From assembly GCA_017415805.1 (NCBI GenBank), contig JAFQEC010000029.1:1-64000 (forward strand): DNA of 64,000 nt, given 5' to 3'. The notes beneath the pieces are model-generated. The model saw only the letters and a list, made by a program, of their open reading frames with translations, did not search any database and was not told the DNA's origin. This DNA is from Clostridia bacterium. Lineage in GTDB: Bacteria > Bacillota > Clostridia > Oscillospirales > CAG-272. Shown one piece after another: positions 48,393 through 61,632 of the stretch; position 1 is the first letter of the stretch, and each line of letters begins with the position of its first letter. Position numbers and translations under genes: made by a program.

Positions 48393-48421
48393 TTGCCAAA
48401 TGCGACAAAATGTGCTATACT
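48393..48421 (+). promoter_or_regulatory. Sigma-A promoter of the beta-lactamase-like gene
   Basis: TTGCCA, 17-bp spacer ending TGC, TATACT; the -35 overlaps the codons just after trxB. Confidence 0.75.
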
Positions 48422-48456
48422 TTGGATGCAAGAAATTTTTGAAAGGGGGTGTCGGC

Positions 48457-50229
48457 GTGCGAAGATCGCTGTTGTGCTTGCTTGCGCTTTGTTTTTGTGT
48501 GTCGTTTTTGTCGTGTACGGTCACGGCGGCACCTGCCGATCCCCGCGTCGCCACCGCGCAAGAGCAGCTCCGAAGCTCTCTTGGCGTCGATACCCCAGGG
48601 GCGATCGTTCTGATCGCGCAAGGGGGCGAGCTGACGGTTTCTGAGAGCTACGGATACGCCAATATCGAGCAGCGCACCCTCGTTACGCTCGATACCGCCT
48701 TTGAGCTGGGCGACCTCTCGTCGGTGTTCGTAACGCTCGGCGCGCTTGCGCTGGCCGAGCAGGGTGACCTTGATCTCGGGGCAAGCATCGCCGACTATCT
48801 TCCCGCCGCGCTTTACGACCGCCTTGCACTCACATACCCCGTCTCGGTGCGCCAGCTGCTGTGCGGCACGGCGGGCTTTGAGGGGCGAACGCTGGAGAAT
48901 GTTTTTGAAAAGGACTCCCACCGTTTTGCTTCACTCGAGGAGGCACTGCTCGCCGAGGTGCCGCGTCAGGTCACCCCACCCGACACCGTGATCGTCAGCA
49001 GCCCGTTTGCGATCACGCTCGCGGCCCTTGTGATCGAGGCCGTGTCGGGTGTTTCGTACACCGAATATATCACGCAAAACGTCCTTACGCCGCTTGGCAT
49101 GCACGATACGGTGCTTGAGCCAACGGCAAGCACCCCCTTCGATCGCCCCGCAAGCGGCCACGTTGCCGTGGGCGAGGGGCGCTTTTCGGTTGCCGCACGC
49201 GAGGGGCGCAGCTACTCGGGTCTGTATCCCGCCACAGGGGCGATCTCCACGGGTGAGGATCTTGCAAGCCTTCTTTCTTACCTGACCGCAAATGGAAGTG
49301 CGCTCACACAGCAGCTCTGCTCGGTCGGGCTTCTTTCGCACGGTGCGCTCACCTTTACCTGTAAAGGAGAGGCGTATGTCGCACGTGGTAGCACCCTGTA
49401 TTTCGGCGCCTCGCTTTGCTTGGCACCTGCAAAGGGGCTGGGGGCGCTGGTGCTTACCAACGCTGCCCCAAGCGCGCTGCTGGAGCTGCCCGAAGCGCTT
49501 TGCGGCGCGTCGGTGGGGGTTGCAGTATCGGGCGAGGGGGAACTGCCCGAGCTCAAGGTCTTTGAGGGCGTTTATTCCGCTGCCACCATGGAGCAGCACA
49601 GCCTTCTTGGCAAGCTCCATACCATGAAGAATGCCGCCGAGCTCACCGAGAACGACGACGGCACGCTCTCGTTTTTGGGCAAGCGACTGCGGCAGGTCCA
49701 ACCGGGCGTGTTCGTGGACGCCGAGGGCGACGGCACGCTGGCCGTCGTGCAGATCCTGCGCAATGCCGAGGGCGAGGTCACTGCGCTGATCACCGCCGAG
49801 GGAGAGACCTATTTGCCCTTGCCGTTCTATTACGCAAAGCTCCCCGCAACGGTGCTGCGCGTGCTCCTGGTCGGTATATCGGTGTATTTCCTGCTGGTCG
49901 GCCTGTATGAGCTGCTGCGCTTGCTTACGGGTGCGCGCAGGGGAGATCTGCGTTCTGCGCTGGCGTACGGCCTTACGGCACTGCTTGCGCTGAGCGTGCT
50001 GTTGCAGCTTTTGGTCGCATGGAGCGTGGGCACCGCCGCGCTTTCGGCCTTCTTTGATGCAATGGCCGTGGTTACGCTGTTCTGCGGTTTTGGTGCATTG
50101 GTGGGGCACATCTTCGCTTTCGTCACCTCACTGCTCGATCGCCGCTTGCACCACCGTGTGGCCTATAACGCCATGCTGCTGGTGGTCTATGTGTTGCTGA
50201 TCTGCTTCTTCGGACTTTCCGTGTTCTAA
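48457..50229 (+). CDS. Beta-lactamase/PBP4*-fold membrane protein lacking catalytic residues
   Basis: 590 residues: signal peptide (RRSLLCLLALCFCVSFLSC), an extracellular serine beta-lactamase-like domain (residues about 35-340), a beta domain (LKVFEGVYSAATMEQHSLLGKL), and a C-terminal membrane part with about five helices from residue 465. Fold landmarks are clear (ALAEQGDLDLGASIADYLP, VRQLLCGTAGFEG, ITQNVLTPLGMHDT, PATGAISTGEDLASLLSYL), but the SxxK motif reads DLSS (Asp86-Ser89) and the YxN motif reads VSS (180-182). So nucleophile, general-base Lys and Tyr are all gone. It is expected to bind, not hydrolyse. Start GTG at 48457 follows GAAAGGGGG. Confidence 0.8.
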   Translation: MRRSLLCLLALCFCVSFLSCTVTAAPADPRVATAQEQLRSSLGVDTPGAIVLIAQGGELTVSESYGYANIEQRTLVTLDTAFELGDLSSVFVTLGALALAEQGDLDLGASIADYLPAALYDRLALTYPVSVRQLLCGTAGFEGRTLENVFEKDSHRFASLEEALLAEVPRQVTPPDTVIVSSPFAITLAALVIEAVSGVSYTEYITQNVLTPLGMHDTVLEPTASTPFDRPASGHVAVGEGRFSVAAREGRSYSGLYPATGAISTGEDLASLLSYLTANGSALTQQLCSVGLLSHGALTFTCKGEAYVARGSTLYFGASLCLAPAKGLGALVLTNAAPSALLELPEALCGASVGVAVSGEGELPELKVFEGVYSAATMEQHSLLGKLHTMKNAAELTENDDGTLSFLGKRLRQVQPGVFVDAEGDGTLAVVQILRNAEGEVTALITAEGETYLPLPFYYAKLPATVLRVLLVGISVYFLLVGLYELLRLLTGARRGDLRSALAYGLTALLALSVLLQLLVAWSVGTAALSAFFDAMAVVTLFCGFGALVGHIFAFVTSLLDRRLHHRVAYNAMLLVVYVLLICFFGLSVF

Positions 50230-53961: not shown

Positions 53962-54804
53962 ATGGAAGATCGCAGAAGCAAAAATCAATACCGTGGCAAG
54001 AGCCACGCCAAGGATTCCTACCGTAAGGAAACGCAAAGAAGCGCGCCGCAGGGCGAGGAGCGCATCGGCAACGGCGCTGTGATCGGCCGCAACGCCGTGC
54101 GCGAGCTGCTGCGTTCGGGGCATGCCGTGGATAAGCTGCTGGTGCAAAGCGGTGAGCGAGAGGGGGCACTGGTCCCTTTGGTGGCGGCCGCGCTGGAGCG
54201 CGGTATTCCCGTCATTGAGACCGAGCGCCGCAAGCTCGATGCGCTCGCGGGCTTTGCGCCCCACCAGGGCGTGATCGCCATGGCGGCCGAGAAGGAATAT
54301 TGCAGCATTGAGGATATTCTTGCCATCGCCGCCGAACGCGGTGAGCAGCCGCTGGTCGTGGTGGCCGACGGCATTGCCGATCCCTACAATCTCGGTGCGA
54401 TCATCCGCTGCGCCGAGGGCTGCGGCGCGCACGGCCTGATCCTGCCCAAGCGCCACGCCGCGGGGCTCTCGCCCCTGGTGACCAAGGCGTCCGCGGGCGC
54501 GATCGAGCATCTGGCGATCGCCAAGGTGCCCAACATCAGCGCGGCGATCGAGACCCTCAAAAAAGCAGGCCTTTGGATCTACGCTGCCGAGGCCGACGGC
54601 ACCGATTATCATGAGACCGACCTCAACCGCGCCGCGGCCATCGTGCTCGGTAGCGAGGGAGAGGGCGTTTCGGAGCTCGTGCGGCGCAAGTGTGACTTCG
54701 TGGTGTCGATCCCGCTTTACGGCAAGGTCAATTCACTCAATGTTTCCGCGGCGGCCGCGATCCTGCTGGCCGAGACCGCGCACCGCCAGAGAAAAGGAAA
54801 ATAA
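53962..54804 (+). CDS. rlmB: 23S rRNA (guanosine-2'-O)-methyltransferase RlmB
   Basis: 280 residues, SPOUT/TrmH family. Basic N-terminal extension of about 30 residues, SpoU substrate-binding domain (IGRNAVRELLRSG), then the knotted domain: VVVADGIADPYNLGAIIRCAE, LVTKASAGAIEHL, IVLGSEGEGVSELV and SIPLYGKVNSLNVSAAAAI. RlmB-type by its domain order, though TrmH-like relatives share the motifs. First gene of a four-gene unit. Confidence 0.9.
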   Translation: MEDRRSKNQYRGKSHAKDSYRKETQRSAPQGEERIGNGAVIGRNAVRELLRSGHAVDKLLVQSGEREGALVPLVAAALERGIPVIETERRKLDALAGFAPHQGVIAMAAEKEYCSIEDILAIAAERGEQPLVVVADGIADPYNLGAIIRCAEGCGAHGLILPKRHAAGLSPLVTKASAGAIEHLAIAKVPNISAAIETLKKAGLWIYAAEADGTDYHETDLNRAAAIVLGSEGEGVSELVRRKCDFVVSIPLYGKVNSLNVSAAAAILLAETAHRQRKGK

Positions 54805-54842: not shown

Positions 54843-57683
54843 ATGGCAAAAGAGATCGACTGGAACGAGGCTGACCGCTTGATGGAGCAGCTGCAGGCAC
54901 GCATTGACGCGGACGGCGACGCGCCCGACCCTGACGCCAAGGAGCAATCCGAGGCCGAGAGCACCGCGTCCGAGACCGCTGTGTCCGAGCCCGCAAAAGA
55001 GGACGGTACACAGGATGAAGCGTCACGCTCGCCCGTTCCCGCCGTCGAAAAAAAGCCGCGTCCGCGCAAGAAGCGCGCACCTAAATTCCGTCCCGAGGAA
55101 TGGGAACGGATGCAGGCGGCAAAAATGGCGGAAAATCCGTTGCATACCCCTGCCGATCGCGCAAGCAAGAACGCCGCACGGCGTGCCCAAATGCAGCAGC
55201 AGGAGGATTGGAGGACCAGCGGCCCCGTCGCGCCGCGCCGCCCCGCACCGCGCACGCAAAAGACCGCCGAGCCGACACCGATGCCTGCGCGCAAAAGCGC
55301 ACCCGCGCCCACGCCACGCATGCCCTCTCCCGAGTCCCCGAAAAGGGAGCAGGAGAGCCGCACCGAGCACGAGCGCCGCGCCGCCGAGACCGTAGAGGAT
55401 CTGATGCAGGATCTCTTCGGCACTGCCACGGGCACGGGCGAGAGCCGATTTGCAAGCCCCGAGACGGGCAAGAGCCCCGCATCGCCGCAGGTGGAAGCAC
55501 CTGCCGCACAGCAGGTGGAAGCACCCGCCGCACAGCAGGAGGAGCCCCCCACCGTCACGCTGACGTGCGACGGCCAGATCGGCTTGCTTTTGCCCGAAAC
55601 GGGTGCGGTCGGCACGCCGGATCAGACCGAGGAAACGGTCGAGATGGGCGAGGAGCCCATCTTCCCGCAGATCGACGACGCACAGGTGAATTTGTTTTCG
55701 CTCTTTTCGGTGGAAAAGCCGACGGGAGGGGAGAGCGCACCGACCGATTCGCCCGATCCCGAGGAGGAGGCCGAAAAAATGGAGCTCAAGCGCTCGGTCG
55801 AGTCCTCGAAGGAGGATTTTGAGCTTTTGCTGGAGCTCGATTACGAGGATGAGCTCGGCAACACCATCGGCTTTGAGAAGATCCGCGACTATCACGAGCT
55901 CGGTATGAACGGTCAGGAGGTGGTGCGCCGTCGCCGCCGCAGATCGGGCGAGCCCCGTGAGTACGAGACGCAGGGTCAGGACATCAGCCTGCGCCGCACC
56001 TACGCCGAGCGCAGGCGCGGATACATCGTGCAGCTTGTGATCGCCGTGGTGCTGACCGTTGTCCTGTTTATCTATGAGCGCGCATCCTGGATGGCGGCGC
56101 TCTTCGGCGGCCCGTTTGACGGTGCCGCATATCCCGTTTCCTATATTCTGTTCGGTATGCAGATCCTGCTCATCGGCGCGGTCTTTTGTCACAAGCGCCT
56201 GCTGGACGGCTTTTTGCGTCTGGTGCGCTTCTCTCCCATCGACGATTCGCTTTGCTCGGTGCTGGTGCTGGTGACCTTCGGCTACCATTTCGTGCTTTTG
56301 TTCCTGCCGCACAGCGGCTATCCTACGCTGTATCTCTCGCCTGCCGCAGGGTGCATGGCTCTGCTTGCTCTCTCGGATCTGCTGGAGTGGTACCGCGAGT
56401 CGCTGGCGTTCCAGGTCATTTCCTCGCGCAAGCAGAAATATGCGCTGATCCCGCGCGTTTCGGTGGGCGGAAAGCAGAACAGTGCGCGCGCACAGCTGCT
56501 GGAGACCGAAAGAGAGGAAAAGCTCTGGTATGTGCGCCCCGTGGGCTTCGTGCGCAACTATTTTGCCAATACGGCCAGACGCGTGGAGCACACCCATTCG
56601 CTGGGCGCACAGCTTTTGCTGATCGTCTCGATCGGCGCGGCACTCGGTCTTTACGTGCTGGCCTCGGGCGGCAGCGTGGGTGCGATGCTGCACACCGCGT
56701 TTCTCACCTTCCTGTTCTGTCTGCCCACGGTTCTGCTGGTGATCACCTCGCTGCCCATGTTCCTTGCCGCTTGTCTGCGCCTGAAGCGCCGCGGTGCGAT
56801 CGTGGGCGAGGAGACGGTCTATGCCTGCGGTGAGCCCGCCGCACTGGTCATGCCCGATTCCGAGGCCTTTGGGGAGATGGGTAACGAGCAATTTGAGTTT
56901 GTGGGCGATGCAGACGTACAGCGCGTTTCGGTGCTGGTGCACGCCCTTTTGGAGAAGGTGCAAAGTCCTCTTGTTTATTCGGTGGACGTGGAGCGCAGCA
57001 TGCGCATGGACCCCGCCGAGCTTACCCTCACCGAGATCGACGAGCAGGGCGTTGCCGCCGTCGTCGGTGCGGCGCAGACCCCGATGCTGATGGGAAGCGT
57101 GGAATATTTGCAAAAATACGGCATCCGCGTGCGTCCGCGCGCAGGCGTTGCCTTTGGCGAGCTGCGCCGCCGCTTGCTGTGCGTGGCCATTGACAACAAG
57201 GTCACGGCCCTGTTTTTGGTGCGCTACCGCCTCACGGCCGCTATGGCGACGCTCCTGGAGGAGCTGCACGCCGAGGATGTGCGCGTGCTGGTGCGTACCA
57301 AGGATCCCGGCGTGCACAACGGCCTTTTCGTACAGCTCCGCCCCGATTCCCCCGACCCCGTCAGGGTCATGAAGCCCACCGCCAACGAGCTGGATATCCG
57401 CACCGACCGTGTGGATGCCACTGTCGTGGCGCTTGGCTCGTGCAAGGAGGCGGCACGCACCTTCGTTACCTGCCGCCGCGTGCGGCGTGCCGCGATGTTC
57501 GGCAAGCTCTTTCAGGTCGGCTCGATCGTGATGGGTGCCGTGCTCTCGGCGCTTCTCACCGTTTTCGGCAAGATCGGCAGCGTCCCCTCGGTGCTGGTCA
57601 CGCTGTGGCTGCTGTTGTTCTGCGGCATCCACGCTCTTACGTCCTTCCTCTACTTGCGGGAAAAGGACACGAACGCAAATTAA
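54843..57683 (+). CDS. Large membrane protein resembling a degenerate P-type ATPase
   Basis: 946 residues. Residues 1-300: long acidic/Pro-Ala-rich disordered region. Then about four helices (residues 392-520; QLVIAVVLTVVLFIYE is first), a cytosolic segment, a helix pair near 590-645 ending FCLPTVLLVITSLPMFLA followed by RRGAIVGEETVYACGEPAA, a cytosolic domain of about 230 residues, and two final helices. The order matches P1-type ATPases, where the helix with CPx is followed by RRGILVKGG and DKTGT. Here the DKTGT position reads MPDSEAF (Asp672 without KTGT), the TGDN position reads RTKDPG (about 818), and GDGxND is absent. So it should not hydrolyse ATP in the P-type way. AAAGGAGGG precedes the ATG. 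A sensor or scaffold role is inference. Confidence 0.6.
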   Translation: MAKEIDWNEADRLMEQLQARIDADGDAPDPDAKEQSEAESTASETAVSEPAKEDGTQDEASRSPVPAVEKKPRPRKKRAPKFRPEEWERMQAAKMAENPLHTPADRASKNAARRAQMQQQEDWRTSGPVAPRRPAPRTQKTAEPTPMPARKSAPAPTPRMPSPESPKREQESRTEHERRAAETVEDLMQDLFGTATGTGESRFASPETGKSPASPQVEAPAAQQVEAPAAQQEEPPTVTLTCDGQIGLLLPETGAVGTPDQTEETVEMGEEPIFPQIDDAQVNLFSLFSVEKPTGGESAPTDSPDPEEEAEKMELKRSVESSKEDFELLLELDYEDELGNTIGFEKIRDYHELGMNGQEVVRRRRRRSGEPREYETQGQDISLRRTYAERRRGYIVQLVIAVVLTVVLFIYERASWMAALFGGPFDGAAYPVSYILFGMQILLIGAVFCHKRLLDGFLRLVRFSPIDDSLCSVLVLVTFGYHFVLLFLPHSGYPTLYLSPAAGCMALLALSDLLEWYRESLAFQVISSRKQKYALIPRVSVGGKQNSARAQLLETEREEKLWYVRPVGFVRNYFANTARRVEHTHSLGAQLLLIVSIGAALGLYVLASGGSVGAMLHTAFLTFLFCLPTVLLVITSLPMFLAACLRLKRRGAIVGEETVYACGEPAALVMPDSEAFGEMGNEQFEFVGDADVQRVSVLVHALLEKVQSPLVYSVDVERSMRMDPAELTLTEIDEQGVAAVVGAAQTPMLMGSVEYLQKYGIRVRPRAGVAFGELRRRLLCVAIDNKVTALFLVRYRLTAAMATLLEELHAEDVRVLVRTKDPGVHNGLFVQLRPDSPDPVRVMKPTANELDIRTDRVDATVVALGSCKEAARTFVTCRRVRRAAMFGKLFQVGSIVMGAVLSALLTVFGKIGSVPSVLVTLWLLLFCGIHALTSFLYLREKDTNAN

Positions 57684-57714
57684 AATGTGCCGCGCGTGCG
57701 GCAGGAGTTATGTT

Positions 57715-59583
57715 ATGAATGAAAAGATCAGTCAGGTTCTGCGCTCGGTGCAAAAGCCCGGCCGCTATTGCGGCGGGGAATACGGCGCGACCATCAAGGA
57801 CAAGAGCGCGGTCAAGGCGCGCTTTGCCTTTTGCTTTCCCGATACCTACGAGATCGGCATGTCCAATCTCGGTATGCGGATCCTGTACGGCGTTCTGAAC
57901 CGCGAGGACGATATCTGGTGCGAGCGTGTGTTTGCGCCGTGGGTCGATATGCAAGAGAAGATGCGCGAGCACAGTATTCCGCTCTGGGCGCACGAGTCGG
58001 GCGACCCCCTCACCGATTTTGATATCGTGGGCTTCACGCTCCAATACGAAATGTGCTATACCACCGTGCTGCAGATGCTTCGCATGGCGAATATCCCCTT
58101 GCGCGCCGATGCGCGCGGTGAGAGTGATCCCATCGTGATCGGCGGCGGCCCCTGTGCCTACAATGCCGAGCCCTTGGCCGATTTTTTTGATTGCTTCTCG
58201 ATCGGAGAGGGCGAGGATAACCTTGTGGAGGTCACCAAGCTGCAGATCCGCATGAAGGAGGAGGGAAGATATACCCGTGCCGCCTTCCTGCACGAGGCGG
58301 CGGCCACCATTCGCGGTATCTACGTGCCCTCGCTTTACGAGGTGACCTACAACGCCGACGGCACGATCGCCGCCATTACCCCCAAATACGACGATATCCC
58401 CGCACGCGTGGAGAAGTGCATCATGCACGACCTTGACAAGTCCTTTTTCCCCGAGCAGGTGGTCATGCCCTATATCGAGGCCGTGCACGACCGCATCATG
58501 CTGGAGGTCTATCGCGGTTGCATCCGCGGCTGTCGCTTCTGCCAGTCGGGCATGATCTACCGCCCCGTGCGCGAGAAATCGCCCGAGGTGCTGAACAAGC
58601 AGGCGCGGTGTCTGTACGATGCCACGGGCTATGAGGAGATCTCGCTCACCTCACTCTCGATCAGCGATTACACACAGCTCGAGCCCCTCACGCGCGCGCT
58701 GCTGGAGTGGACCGACCGCAATATGGTCAGCCTGTCGCTCCCGTCGCTTCGCGTGGATAGCTTTAGCAAGGAGCTGATGGACCGCATCGCGTCGGTGCGT
58801 ACCTCGTCGCTGACCTTCGCCCCCGAGGCGGGCACACAGAGACTGCGCGACGTGATCAATAAGAACGTCGAGGAGGCTGATCTGATGCGCGCTGTGCGCA
58901 CGGCCTTTGCGGGCGGAAAGACCAACGTCAAGCTCTACTTCATGCAGGGCCTGCCCACCGAGACCGCCGAGGATCTGGAGGGCATTGCCACCCTTGCCTC
59001 GCGCGTGGTGCACGAATATTATCAGACCCCCGAGCGCCCTAAGGGACGCTCGCCGCAGGTCACCATCAGCGTTTCGTGCTTTATCCCCAAGCCCTTTACC
59101 CCCTTCCAATGGGAGGCGCAGGACACGATGGAGATGCTGGAGGAGAAGCAGGCGTATCTGGGCTCAAAGGTGACCGACCGCAAGGTGCGCTATACCCACC
59201 ACGATGCCAAGGTCAGCCGTATTGAGGCCGTGCTGGCGCGCGGCAACCGCCGTCTTGGTGCCGCGCTGGAGCTGGCCGCAAACGAGGGCTTTTGCTTTGA
59301 TGCGTGGGATGAGTTTTTTGATTACGAGAAATGGATCTCGGTGCTGGAACGCACGGGGCTTGACCCTGCGTTCTTTGCCAACCGTGCCTTTGGTCTGGAT
59401 GAGGTCCTTCCGTGGGACGTTATCGACTGCGGCGTGACCAAGGAATTTTTGAAGCGCGAGCGTGCGCGGGCTTATGAGGGGAACACCACCCCCAACTGCC
59501 GCGAGAAATGCTCGGGCTGCGGCGCGAATCGCCTGGGCGGCGTGCGCGCGGTCTGTCCCACGGGCTGCGGAGGTGCGAAATGA
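57715..59583 (+). CDS. B12-binding-like radical SAM protein, TIGR03960 type
   Basis: 622 residues. N-terminal domain related to B12-binding proteins (FCFPDTYEIGMSNLGMRILY, IVIGGGPCAYNAEPL), radical SAM core with GCIRGCRFC (Cys269, 273, 276), then EISLTSLSISDY and FAPEAGTQRLRDVINK, and a Cys-rich C-terminus (CREKCSGCGANRLGG). This family is found next to or fused with DUF2344 (TIGR03936); reaction unknown. ATG at 57715 is 7 nt after AGGAG. ATGA overlap with the next gene. Confidence 0.92.
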   Translation: MNEKISQVLRSVQKPGRYCGGEYGATIKDKSAVKARFAFCFPDTYEIGMSNLGMRILYGVLNREDDIWCERVFAPWVDMQEKMREHSIPLWAHESGDPLTDFDIVGFTLQYEMCYTTVLQMLRMANIPLRADARGESDPIVIGGGPCAYNAEPLADFFDCFSIGEGEDNLVEVTKLQIRMKEEGRYTRAAFLHEAAATIRGIYVPSLYEVTYNADGTIAAITPKYDDIPARVEKCIMHDLDKSFFPEQVVMPYIEAVHDRIMLEVYRGCIRGCRFCQSGMIYRPVREKSPEVLNKQARCLYDATGYEEISLTSLSISDYTQLEPLTRALLEWTDRNMVSLSLPSLRVDSFSKELMDRIASVRTSSLTFAPEAGTQRLRDVINKNVEEADLMRAVRTAFAGGKTNVKLYFMQGLPTETAEDLEGIATLASRVVHEYYQTPERPKGRSPQVTISVSCFIPKPFTPFQWEAQDTMEMLEEKQAYLGSKVTDRKVRYTHHDAKVSRIEAVLARGNRRLGAALELAANEGFCFDAWDEFFDYEKWISVLERTGLDPAFFANRAFGLDEVLPWDVIDCGVTKEFLKRERARAYEGNTTPNCREKCSGCGANRLGGVRAVCPTGCGGAK

Positions 59584-60299
59584 AGGACAACGAACTGAAA
59601 TTCAGCCTGCCGATGCTGGATGCACCGCGCACCGCGCGCGTGCGCTTTCGCAAGGTCGGCAATCTGCAATATATCTCGCATCTCGATCTCCAACGCACCT
59701 TCAGCCGTGTGCTGGTGCGCGCGGGACTGCCGCTTTGGTACACCAAGGGCTTTAATCCCCATATCAAGATGGTGTTCGGCATGCCGTTGCCCGTGGGCGC
59801 GGAGAGCGAGTGCGAGTATCTCGATATCCGCATCGAGCGCGAAATGTCGGATGAGGAGATCAAGGACCGCTTGAACGCCGAGCTCACGCACGAGCTTGCG
59901 GTGGCCGAGGTCTATCCCGCTGAGCGACATTTTTGCGAGATCGCCTTTGCGGAATATGAATATACCGTACACACCGCGGGCGCTGACGAAGCACTTACCG
60001 CACGCGTGCGCGAAGCGCTTTCCACGCGTCCGCTGACCGCGATCAAGCGCAGTAAGTCGGGCGAGAAGGAAGTGGATCTGCTCGACTTCGTGCACCGCTT
60101 CACGGTCGAGGCAACGGACGGCGCGCTCATCATCCGCGCGGTGCTTGCCGCGGGAGAGGGGAATTACCTCAACCCCGATCTGCTCATCACCGCCCTGCGC
60201 GAAAAAACGGGCATCCTTTCGGGCGACCCGATGCAGGAGAGTTATCGTATTTTGCGCCGTCGGGCGTTGCTCGCGGACGGCATTACGGAGTTTCGTTGA
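59580..60299 (+). CDS. Radical SAM-associated protein, DUF2344/TIGR03936
   Basis: 239 residues. RVRFRKVGNLQYISHLDLQRTF and LPLWYTKGFNPHIKMVFGMPLPVG are the hallmarks of DUF2344. It always accompanies the preceding radical SAM type, often fused; RNase E/G and L21 genes usually follow in other Clostridia but not here. The stop lies at the left edge of a 126-nt hairpin. Confidence 0.92.
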   Translation: MKDNELKFSLPMLDAPRTARVRFRKVGNLQYISHLDLQRTFSRVLVRAGLPLWYTKGFNPHIKMVFGMPLPVGAESECEYLDIRIEREMSDEEIKDRLNAELTHELAVAEVYPAERHFCEIAFAEYEYTVHTAGADEALTARVREALSTRPLTAIKRSKSGEKEVDLLDFVHRFTVEATDGALIIRAVLAAGEGNYLNPDLLITALREKTGILSGDPMQESYRILRRRALLADGITEFR

Positions 60300-60423: not shown

Positions 60424-60492
60424 TGTCCGTGTCTTATAATCAGAAATAAAAAGTTTTATTAAATGTCGGGAAATCTCGGGAAAGGAGCACGT

Positions 60493-61632
60493 ATGGATAT
60501 TCTCTATCAAGATCGGGATCTCGTCGTGACCGTCAAGCCGCGCGGCGTGCTCGCACAGGCAGGCGAGGGCGAAAATATGCCCGCGTTGCTCGCACCCTCA
60601 TGCGGAACGGTCTTTCCCGTGCATCGGCTGGATCGGGCTGTTGGCGGCGTGATGGTCTATGCCAAGACGCGCGCCGCGGCGGCCGCGCTGTCGGCCTCGG
60701 TTACCAAGGGCGAGCTGGAAAAGCAATATGTTGCCGTGGTCGCAGGTCTGCCCGAGCCCGCCGAGGGCGAGCTGCGCGATCTGCTCTACCACGACGCGCG
60801 GCAGAACAAGACCTTTGTGGTCGATCACGCGCGCAAGGGTGCAAAAGAGGCAATTTTGCGCTATCGCGTGACACAGACCGTCCAAGAGGGTGACAACACA
60901 CTCTCGCGTGTGGAGATCCGCTTGCTCACGGGTCGCTCACACCAGATCCGCGTGCAGTTCGGCTCGCGCGGCTGGCCACTCGTGGGCGACGGCAAGTACG
61001 GCAGCCGCATCAAGGCGCGCTACCTCGCGCTCTTTGCCGCATCGCTTGCTTTTTTGCATCCCACAAGCGGCAAAATCTGCCGTTTTACGGCCGAAGTGCC
61101 CACCGACTATCCGTGGAGCGCCTTTGGTGCTCCGCACCTTGAGATCGAGCGAAAATACCTGATCGCGTATCCCGATGTCGCACAGCTGTGTGCGATCGAG
61201 GGCTGCCGCGTGCGGCACATGGTTCAAACCTATCTGACAGCGCCAAAGGGCGAAACGCGGCGCGTGCGCCGCATCGAGGAGCAGGGCAGCGTGTGCTATA
61301 TCGAGACCGTGAAGCACCGCGTCAGTGCTCTCACCGCCATTGAGGACGAGCGCGCGCTGACCGCCGCCGATTACGAGCGTGCACTCGCCTTGGCAGACCC
61401 CGCCCGCCGCCCCATCGAAAAAACGCGTTATGCCTTTCCCTATGCAGGCCACACCGTAGAGGTGGACGTCTACCCCTTCTGGCAGGATCGCGCCATTGCC
61501 GAGGTCGAGCTCGCCGACGAGCGCGAGGCCGTCGTGCTGCCGCCGTTCTTGCGCGTGATCCGCGAGGTCACCGACGACGTGCGCTACAAAAACGTGCGCC
61601 TTGCGCGGGAAATACCCTTTGACGAAATATGA
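60493..61632 (+). CDS. RluA-type pseudouridine synthase fused to a CYTH domain
   Basis: 379 residues. Residues 1-215: RluA-family synthase without S4 domain, with HRLDRAVGGVMVYAKT (catalytic Asp in HRLDR), KQYVAVV, GRSHQIRVQF and LVGDGKYG. Residues 216-379: CYTH (triphosphate tunnel) domain with LEIERKYLI (ExExK), basic strands YLTAPKGETRRVRRI, CYIETVKH and acidic VEVDVYPF, IAEVELADE. The reading frame is continuous with no sign of a frameshift. CYTH proteins bind triphosphates or polyphosphate; joining one to an RNA-modifying enzyme is unusual. AAAGGAG precedes the ATG. Confidence 0.88.
   Translation: MDILYQDRDLVVTVKPRGVLAQAGEGENMPALLAPSCGTVFPVHRLDRAVGGVMVYAKTRAAAAALSASVTKGELEKQYVAVVAGLPEPAEGELRDLLYHDARQNKTFVVDHARKGAKEAILRYRVTQTVQEGDNTLSRVEIRLLTGRSHQIRVQFGSRGWPLVGDGKYGSRIKARYLALFAASLAFLHPTSGKICRFTAEVPTDYPWSAFGAPHLEIERKYLIAYPDVAQLCAIEGCRVRHMVQTYLTAPKGETRRVRRIEEQGSVCYIETVKHRVSALTAIEDERALTAADYERALALADPARRPIEKTRYAFPYAGHTVEVDVYPFWQDRAIAEVELADEREAVVLPPFLRVIREVTDDVRYKNVRLAREIPFDEI

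Follow-up and report, generated by a model that had tools for sequence, protein, structure and literature searches.

Introduction

P-type ATPases are treated as pumps and are defined by one aspartate motif. In the open-licence PMC literature we found no published description of a P-type pseudoenzyme from bacteria; the nearest precedent for the protein described here is human TMEM94 (ERMA), an ER protein that has the P-type shape without TGES or GDGxND, carries a lipid at the break of helix M4, and for which ATPase activity was not detected (PMC12134183). That activity is disputed between groups: a 2026 article in Sci Adv claims that TMEM94 with its DKQGI sequence pumps Mg2+ and needs the kept Asp to do so (PMC13322241).

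Here we analyze a protein encoded in a stretch of 64,000 nucleotides from a Clostridia bacterium (the window), which an earlier note, made from the DNA alone, had described as a P-type ATPase-like pseudo-pump. It resembles the P1B pumps CopA, ZntA, and CadA (TIGR01525; PDB 3rfu/4bbj and 4umv) in its eight-helix layout, its M4 proline, the order of its P and N domains, its motif spacing, and its sequence homology. Unlike these pumps, it lacks DKTG, TGE[SA], GDGxND, and CPC, has an A domain of only about 60 residues, and carries an acidic, disordered tail in front. With TMEM94 it shares the P-type shape and the loss of TGES and GDGxND, but TMEM94 is eukaryotic, has ten helices, and retains both Asp-Lys (DKQGI) and a domain like the A domain (PMC12134183, PMC13322241); its nearest pump is SPCA, whereas that of the window protein is CopA.

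Our analysis confirms that the window protein is a relative of CopA-like P1B ATPases that lacks the catalytic machinery. It is probably a P1B-derived pseudo-pump that belongs to one clade, is encoded by a core gene of one order, and acts in the membrane as a scaffold or a sensor. The original claim is exceeded, since the pseudo-pump is conserved throughout the order: a whole clade with the body of a pump, but without its chemistry or its actuator domain, is kept by nearly all sampled genomes. It offers a natural case for asking what use a pump scaffold has once catalysis is gone, bears on the TMEM94 dispute, and concerns a gene that is conserved in a large group of gut bacteria but goes unrecognized by curated families.

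Fold and ancestry

The pseudo-P1B-ATPase gene, assigned from its open frame, fold, and profile homology, occupies positions 54843..57683 of the plus strand, on which all features of the protein given below also lie. It is an intact open reading frame of 946 codons without internal stop and is present in one copy in the source genome (1.47 Mb, 97.7% complete). As a lone query, the window protein found no informative family in Pfam, NCBIfam, or the PDB sequences, and a search for related loci with this single protein returned zero relatives. What detects P1B sequence homology is the family profile rather than the window protein alone. A 20-sequence core alignment of the family, compared by hhalign with 22 real P1B pumps encoded in that genome group, matched end to end over 549 columns (probability 99.1, E 7.9e-19), and profile columns 10-136, which cover the region of helices 1-4, match real P1B pumps. 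P2-type ancestry was rejected, the corresponding comparison with P2-type pumps giving an E of 0.17; the P1B match is thus above chance. Searched against the PDB sequences, a wider, 26-member profile (A7) matched the copper pump CopA (3rfu) with an E of 9.5e-27; TIGR01525 matched 17 of these 26 diverse members and the CopA model NF007952 matched 13.

An AlphaFold model of residues 322-946, built with 15 sequences, reached a pLDDT of 73.6 and a pTM of 0.69. Both Foldseek (top match 2.9e-11) and VIA-align gave P1B ATPases as the best 14 matches in the PDB, the top VIA-align match being CopA (4bbj) with a Z of 20.2 and an rmsd of 10.1 Å over 476 residues; TMEM94 was not named among the structural matches listed. 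Given the middling model confidence, TM-scores of at most 0.5, and rmsd values of about 10 Å in the best matches, the placement of the domains is uncertain; the fold class of the model is trustworthy, its detailed domain arrangement is not. An unrelated fold, which the earlier note had set against its own claim, is not what the model gives: the P1B fold and helix order are present in it, as P1B sequence homology is for the family profile. The claim of P-type ancestry stands, and fold, profile matches, and motif spacing narrow it to P1B.

Model and alignment together give eight helices, of which a simple hydropathy scan recovers seven (the fourth is weak). Helices 1-4, equivalent to MA, MB, M1, and M2, fall within residues 391-520 (56013..56402; model and alignment). 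They are followed, where pumps have the actuator domain, by a remnant at residues 521-583 (56403..56591; model and alignment) that has no TGE but has conserved K532 and F569. Alignment places helices 5-6, the M3 and M4 equivalents, at 56592..56783, with P628 at the CPC position and P638 ten residues on. The degenerate phosphorylation site PDSEAFG, residues 671-677 (56853..56873; alignments), takes the place of DKTGTLT in pumps, and the N (nucleotide-binding) domain, supported by alignment and structural match, spans residues 691-792 (56913..57218) and keeps G736 and G751; the His of the HP motif was not seen in it. A degenerate hinge, RTKDPG at residues 818-823 (57294..57311; alignment and orthologue columns), replaces TGDN, and helices 7-8, the M5 and M6 equivalents, lie at residues 867-938 (57441..57656; model and hydropathy scan). 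The two final helices noticed earlier thus follow the P/N part as described, and the strings on which the earlier reading rested are all where it implied: LPTVLLVITSLPMFLA from residue 627, RRGAIVGEE from residue 649, MPDSEAF at the DKTGT place (residue 670), and RTKDPG at the TGDN place (residue 818).

The spacing of these sites is that of a pump. In real P1B pumps from the source genome and its relatives, the distance from the M4 Pro to the Asp of DKTGT is 43 in 23/23 rows, and that from DKTGT to TGD is 140-151 in 20/23; the exceptions are two rows of one gene with 169 and one row in which TGD was not found. In the window protein, P628 to P671 is 43 and P671 to T819 is 148, so that the distance of 146 residues given before was right to within 2.

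Lost and kept catalytic residues

Residue counts were taken from 50 distinct orthologues, no two of them more than 90% alike, and the column of the phosphorylated Asp, placed by gapless alignment from M4, corresponds to P671 of the window protein. DKTG, TGE[SA], and GDGxND each occur in 0/50 of these sequences, the region of the last being shortened, which bears out the lost phosphorylation motif and absent GDGxND that had been read from the single sequence. The phosphorylated-Asp column holds Pro in 17 and Asp in 14 sequences and E, S, N, R, and T in 3 each, with Pro as the replacement in the window's genus; the Lys of DKTGT is found in 0/50. The loss of the hinge had been overstated. TGD itself is not kept, with Thr in 28/50 and Gly outside the eight most frequent residues of position 820, but the Asp of TGDN (D821) is retained in 49/50, so the hinge is not wholly lost. 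The reduction of the actuator domain to about 60 residues, with K532 and F569 conserved, comes in addition to the motifs named earlier.

The family has a conserved pattern of its own in the place of DKTGTLT, roughly hydrophobic-[DEP]-x-x-[DE]-hydrophobic-F-P, as seen from the constant positions: G751 (50/50), D821 (49/50), G736 (47/50), and F676 (46/50) vary least, and D672 is retained in 38/50. Since Asp stands at the phosphorylation position in 14/50 and at the TGDN position in 49/50, residual chemistry is conceivable, and the protein could in principle still be an ATP-driven pump that uses D672 or D821 in an unusual way; the claim that TMEM94 pumps Mg2+ with DKQGI (PMC13322241) would favor this. 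We regard it as very improbable. The Lys is absent throughout and the aligned Asp is present in a minority, whereas TMEM94 keeps Asp-Lys; the A domain and the GDGxND loop are gone; and even TMEM94 showed no ATPase activity in one study (PMC12134183).

The pseudo-pump would thus have lost phosphorylation, dephosphorylation, and Mg/ATP chemistry while being retained under purifying selection. A role as a non-catalytic membrane scaffold or sensor is most likely. The eight-helix core would serve as a membrane anchor or platform for a dead cytosolic P/N module, and the kept M4 helix break and N-domain glycines may allow a ligand, whether lipid, ion, or nucleotide, to bind without turnover.

The features of M4 also suit a passive protein in the manner of TMEM94, which would bind a ligand or handle lipid and move a lipid or an ion at the M4 break without ATP turnover. 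CPC occurs in none of 26 aligned members, but the M4 Pro (P628) is kept in 43/50, P638 is among the most conserved columns, and TMEM94 provides the precedent of a lipid at the M4 break with ATPase activity undetected (PMC12134183). Set against this are the few conserved polar residues in the helices, the lack of an evident set of metal ligands, and the fact that TMEM94 has ten helices and is SPCA-like rather than P1B. We consider such passive transport or lipid handling rather unlikely. The idea that the helices hold a new metal site was rejected, as no conserved candidate set was seen.

Selection and distribution

That the gene is a decaying pseudogene or an assembly artefact might be suspected from the loss of every catalytic motif and from the in-frame stop in a few relatives, such as G056. 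This explanation is already refuted. For residues 322-946, codon comparison of the four most similar pairs (88-95% identical) gives a dN/dS of 0.07-0.10; these pairs are few, coming from a cluster of three sequences and from one pair besides. Frames are open in most members, the gene is near-universal in the order, and its gene order is fixed. A maximum-likelihood tree of 18 pseudo-pumps (the window's and 17 drawn randomly from the 50 distinct sequences), 42 P1B pumps, and 4 P2 pumps, rooted at the midpoint, separates the pseudo-pumps from the other sequences by a branch that has support 100/100 and recurs in 100% of 200 bootstrap trees. The low dN/dS and the membership in one clade together argue against decay. 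Very long branches set the pseudo clade apart from all pumps and prevent its assignment to a P1B subgroup of origin.

A first search found the protein in 45/59 genomes, namely the window's own and 58 relatives; misses within its own genus were 3/20 (G002, G008, and G018, with completeness 80, 52, and 93, respectively). A closer alignment (A4) yielded 14 named loci; the nearest named records are genomes from gut metagenomes that bear the label Clostridia bacterium or Oscillospiraceae bacterium. Profile A7 matches 290 of the 297 order genomes that are at least 90% complete at E <1e-50; a looser tally of 297/297 takes in matches to real pumps. At the same threshold, a class-wide draw of 393 genomes gave matches in 21/22 genomes of the order and in 0/371 others. 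The best score outside the order was 1.1e-34, over columns 196-474 only, and the outside loci from an earlier search (L112-L125) are real pumps with DKTGT, TGE[SA], and GDGxND in 14/14 cases. Of the seven genomes of the order without a full match, six are also without a close RlmB, which fits either joint loss or one missing stretch; in the seventh, G446, rlmB is followed by the start of the tail, with the N-terminal motif of the family, at the end of a contig.

Gene neighborhood

Directly upstream of the pseudo-pump gene, across a gap of 38 nt, lies rlmB, encoding a 23S rRNA 2'-O-methyltransferase (53962..54804, plus strand; TIGR00186, 3.4e-62). The same gene stands directly upstream in 41/41 loci, made up of the window and 40 fetched regions that were picked for having the pseudo-pump gene and not for rlmB. 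Both genes are on the same strand in 36/36 loci measured, with gaps of 2-41 nt in 28/36; in five of the 40 regions (L033, L038, L050, L126, and L136) a longer opposite-strand ORF hid one of the two, and adjacency there rests on tblastn positions. Downstream in the window are a TIGR03960 B12-binding radical SAM protein (57535..59583, plus strand; 4.5e-276, match from residue 67), whose listed ORF start overlaps the pseudo-pump gene and whose likely start is near 57715, and a TIGR03936 radical SAM-associated protein (59508..60299, plus strand; 7.1e-54). The TIGR03960 gene is found downstream in 13/41 loci, all in part of the window's family, and an EF-G-like gene in 7/41, so rlmB alone is the fixed link. 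Of the gene unit proposed in the earlier note, which had also suggested checking whether the neighborhood is conserved, the rlmB part therefore holds, while the radical SAM pair is local.

Being near-universal in the order and always beside rlmB, the pseudo-pump is suggested to have an important job other than pumping. If its neighbors reflected a shared function, it might act at the membrane as a factor in ribosome maturation or in translation, a reading encouraged by the constant rlmB, by the TIGR03960/3936 and EF-G-like neighbors, and by the seven non-matching genomes, six without a close RlmB and the seventh with rlmB and a tail start. One deletion or assembly gap could, however, yield both adjacency and joint absence; the EF-G-like and TIGR03960 genes are each confined to part of the order; and Pfam and NCBIfam searches found no RNA- or ribosome-binding domain. 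We think it improbable in this form. A broader version, that the protein is a near-universal housekeeping pseudoenzyme with a new job tied to rlmB (possibly in ribosome maturation or translation on the membrane side) and carried out through its tail motifs and a ligand-sensing dead core, we put forward only tentatively.

Rae1/NYN (PF05991), the gene that usually follows rlmB in Bacillus, was rejected as a partner that the pseudo-pump has replaced: it was found in 18/59 genomes of the order, with no pattern seen. In four order loci (L212-L215) the NYN/YacP domain lies within open frames of about 860-1330 residues, a length that suggests fusion to a large partner and not a stand-alone Rae1. Elsewhere in the window, a plus-strand gene at 60463-61632 encodes an RluA-type pseudouridine synthase. 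PF00849 covers its residues 20-166; the additional C-terminal half has no Pfam match and contains EIERKYL, which we take to be CYTH-like. Another, at 48400-50229 on the plus strand, encodes a serine hydrolase of the beta-lactamase fold (PF00144) whose C-terminal part looks membrane-spanning.

The acidic N-terminal tail

Residues 1-387 (54843..56003) form an acidic and, from composition and pLDDT, mostly disordered tail with 79 D+E, 52 K+R, and a pI of 4.7; the character of the tail had been recognized before, but its length had been put too low, at 300 residues. In a full-length model, pLDDT is mostly below 50 for residues 25-283, the exceptions in the tail being a helix at residues 7-24 and stretches near the membrane. 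This N-terminal helix (54861..54914; relatives' N-termini and model) is at the place where relatives have [ST]x[DE][DE]IL, variants of which occur at many N-termini across the order, in several families. Likewise, [DE][YF]x[SA][PS]x[DQ] is often found just ahead of helix 1 across the order; both were judged by eye and uncounted. Its counterpart in the window protein is the juxtamembrane EYETQGQD at residues 373-380 (55959..55982; alignments), and both motifs have drifted in the window's genus, to IDWNEADRLMEQL and EYETQGQD. Alignments show a further conserved motif, FELLLELDYEDELGNTIGFEKI, at residues 326-347 (55818..55883), in the window's own genus and in the family. In the scaffold or sensor role that we favor, the disordered tail would recruit a cytosolic partner via the N-terminal helix motif and the juxtamembrane motif.

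As a DNA pattern, the N-terminal motif was found in 4 of 8 genomes searched, with 6 matches in total. Three are the pseudo-pump itself and one is the second decayed pump described below, in G370; of the other two, one is inside a large unrelated ORF and one close to where a short ORF ends.

Other decayed P1B-like proteins

A second decayed P1B-like protein was observed in genus g46, in L181 (6535-8424, minus strand) and L183. Like the pseudo-pump, it has an acidic tail with DLDDIL or DLEEIL at the N-terminus and lacks TGE and GDGxND. Unlike it, it reads NKTGT or SLSGT at the phosphorylation site, depending on which of the two genomes is taken, keeps TGDN and HP, and in L181 does not adjoin rlmB. 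Only 2/198 genomes have a full-length match to it. A further P1B-like protein, in L184 (G591), has DKTGV, with TGD standing where TGE is expected and GDGVAD where GDGxND is, and possibly represents an early stage of decay.
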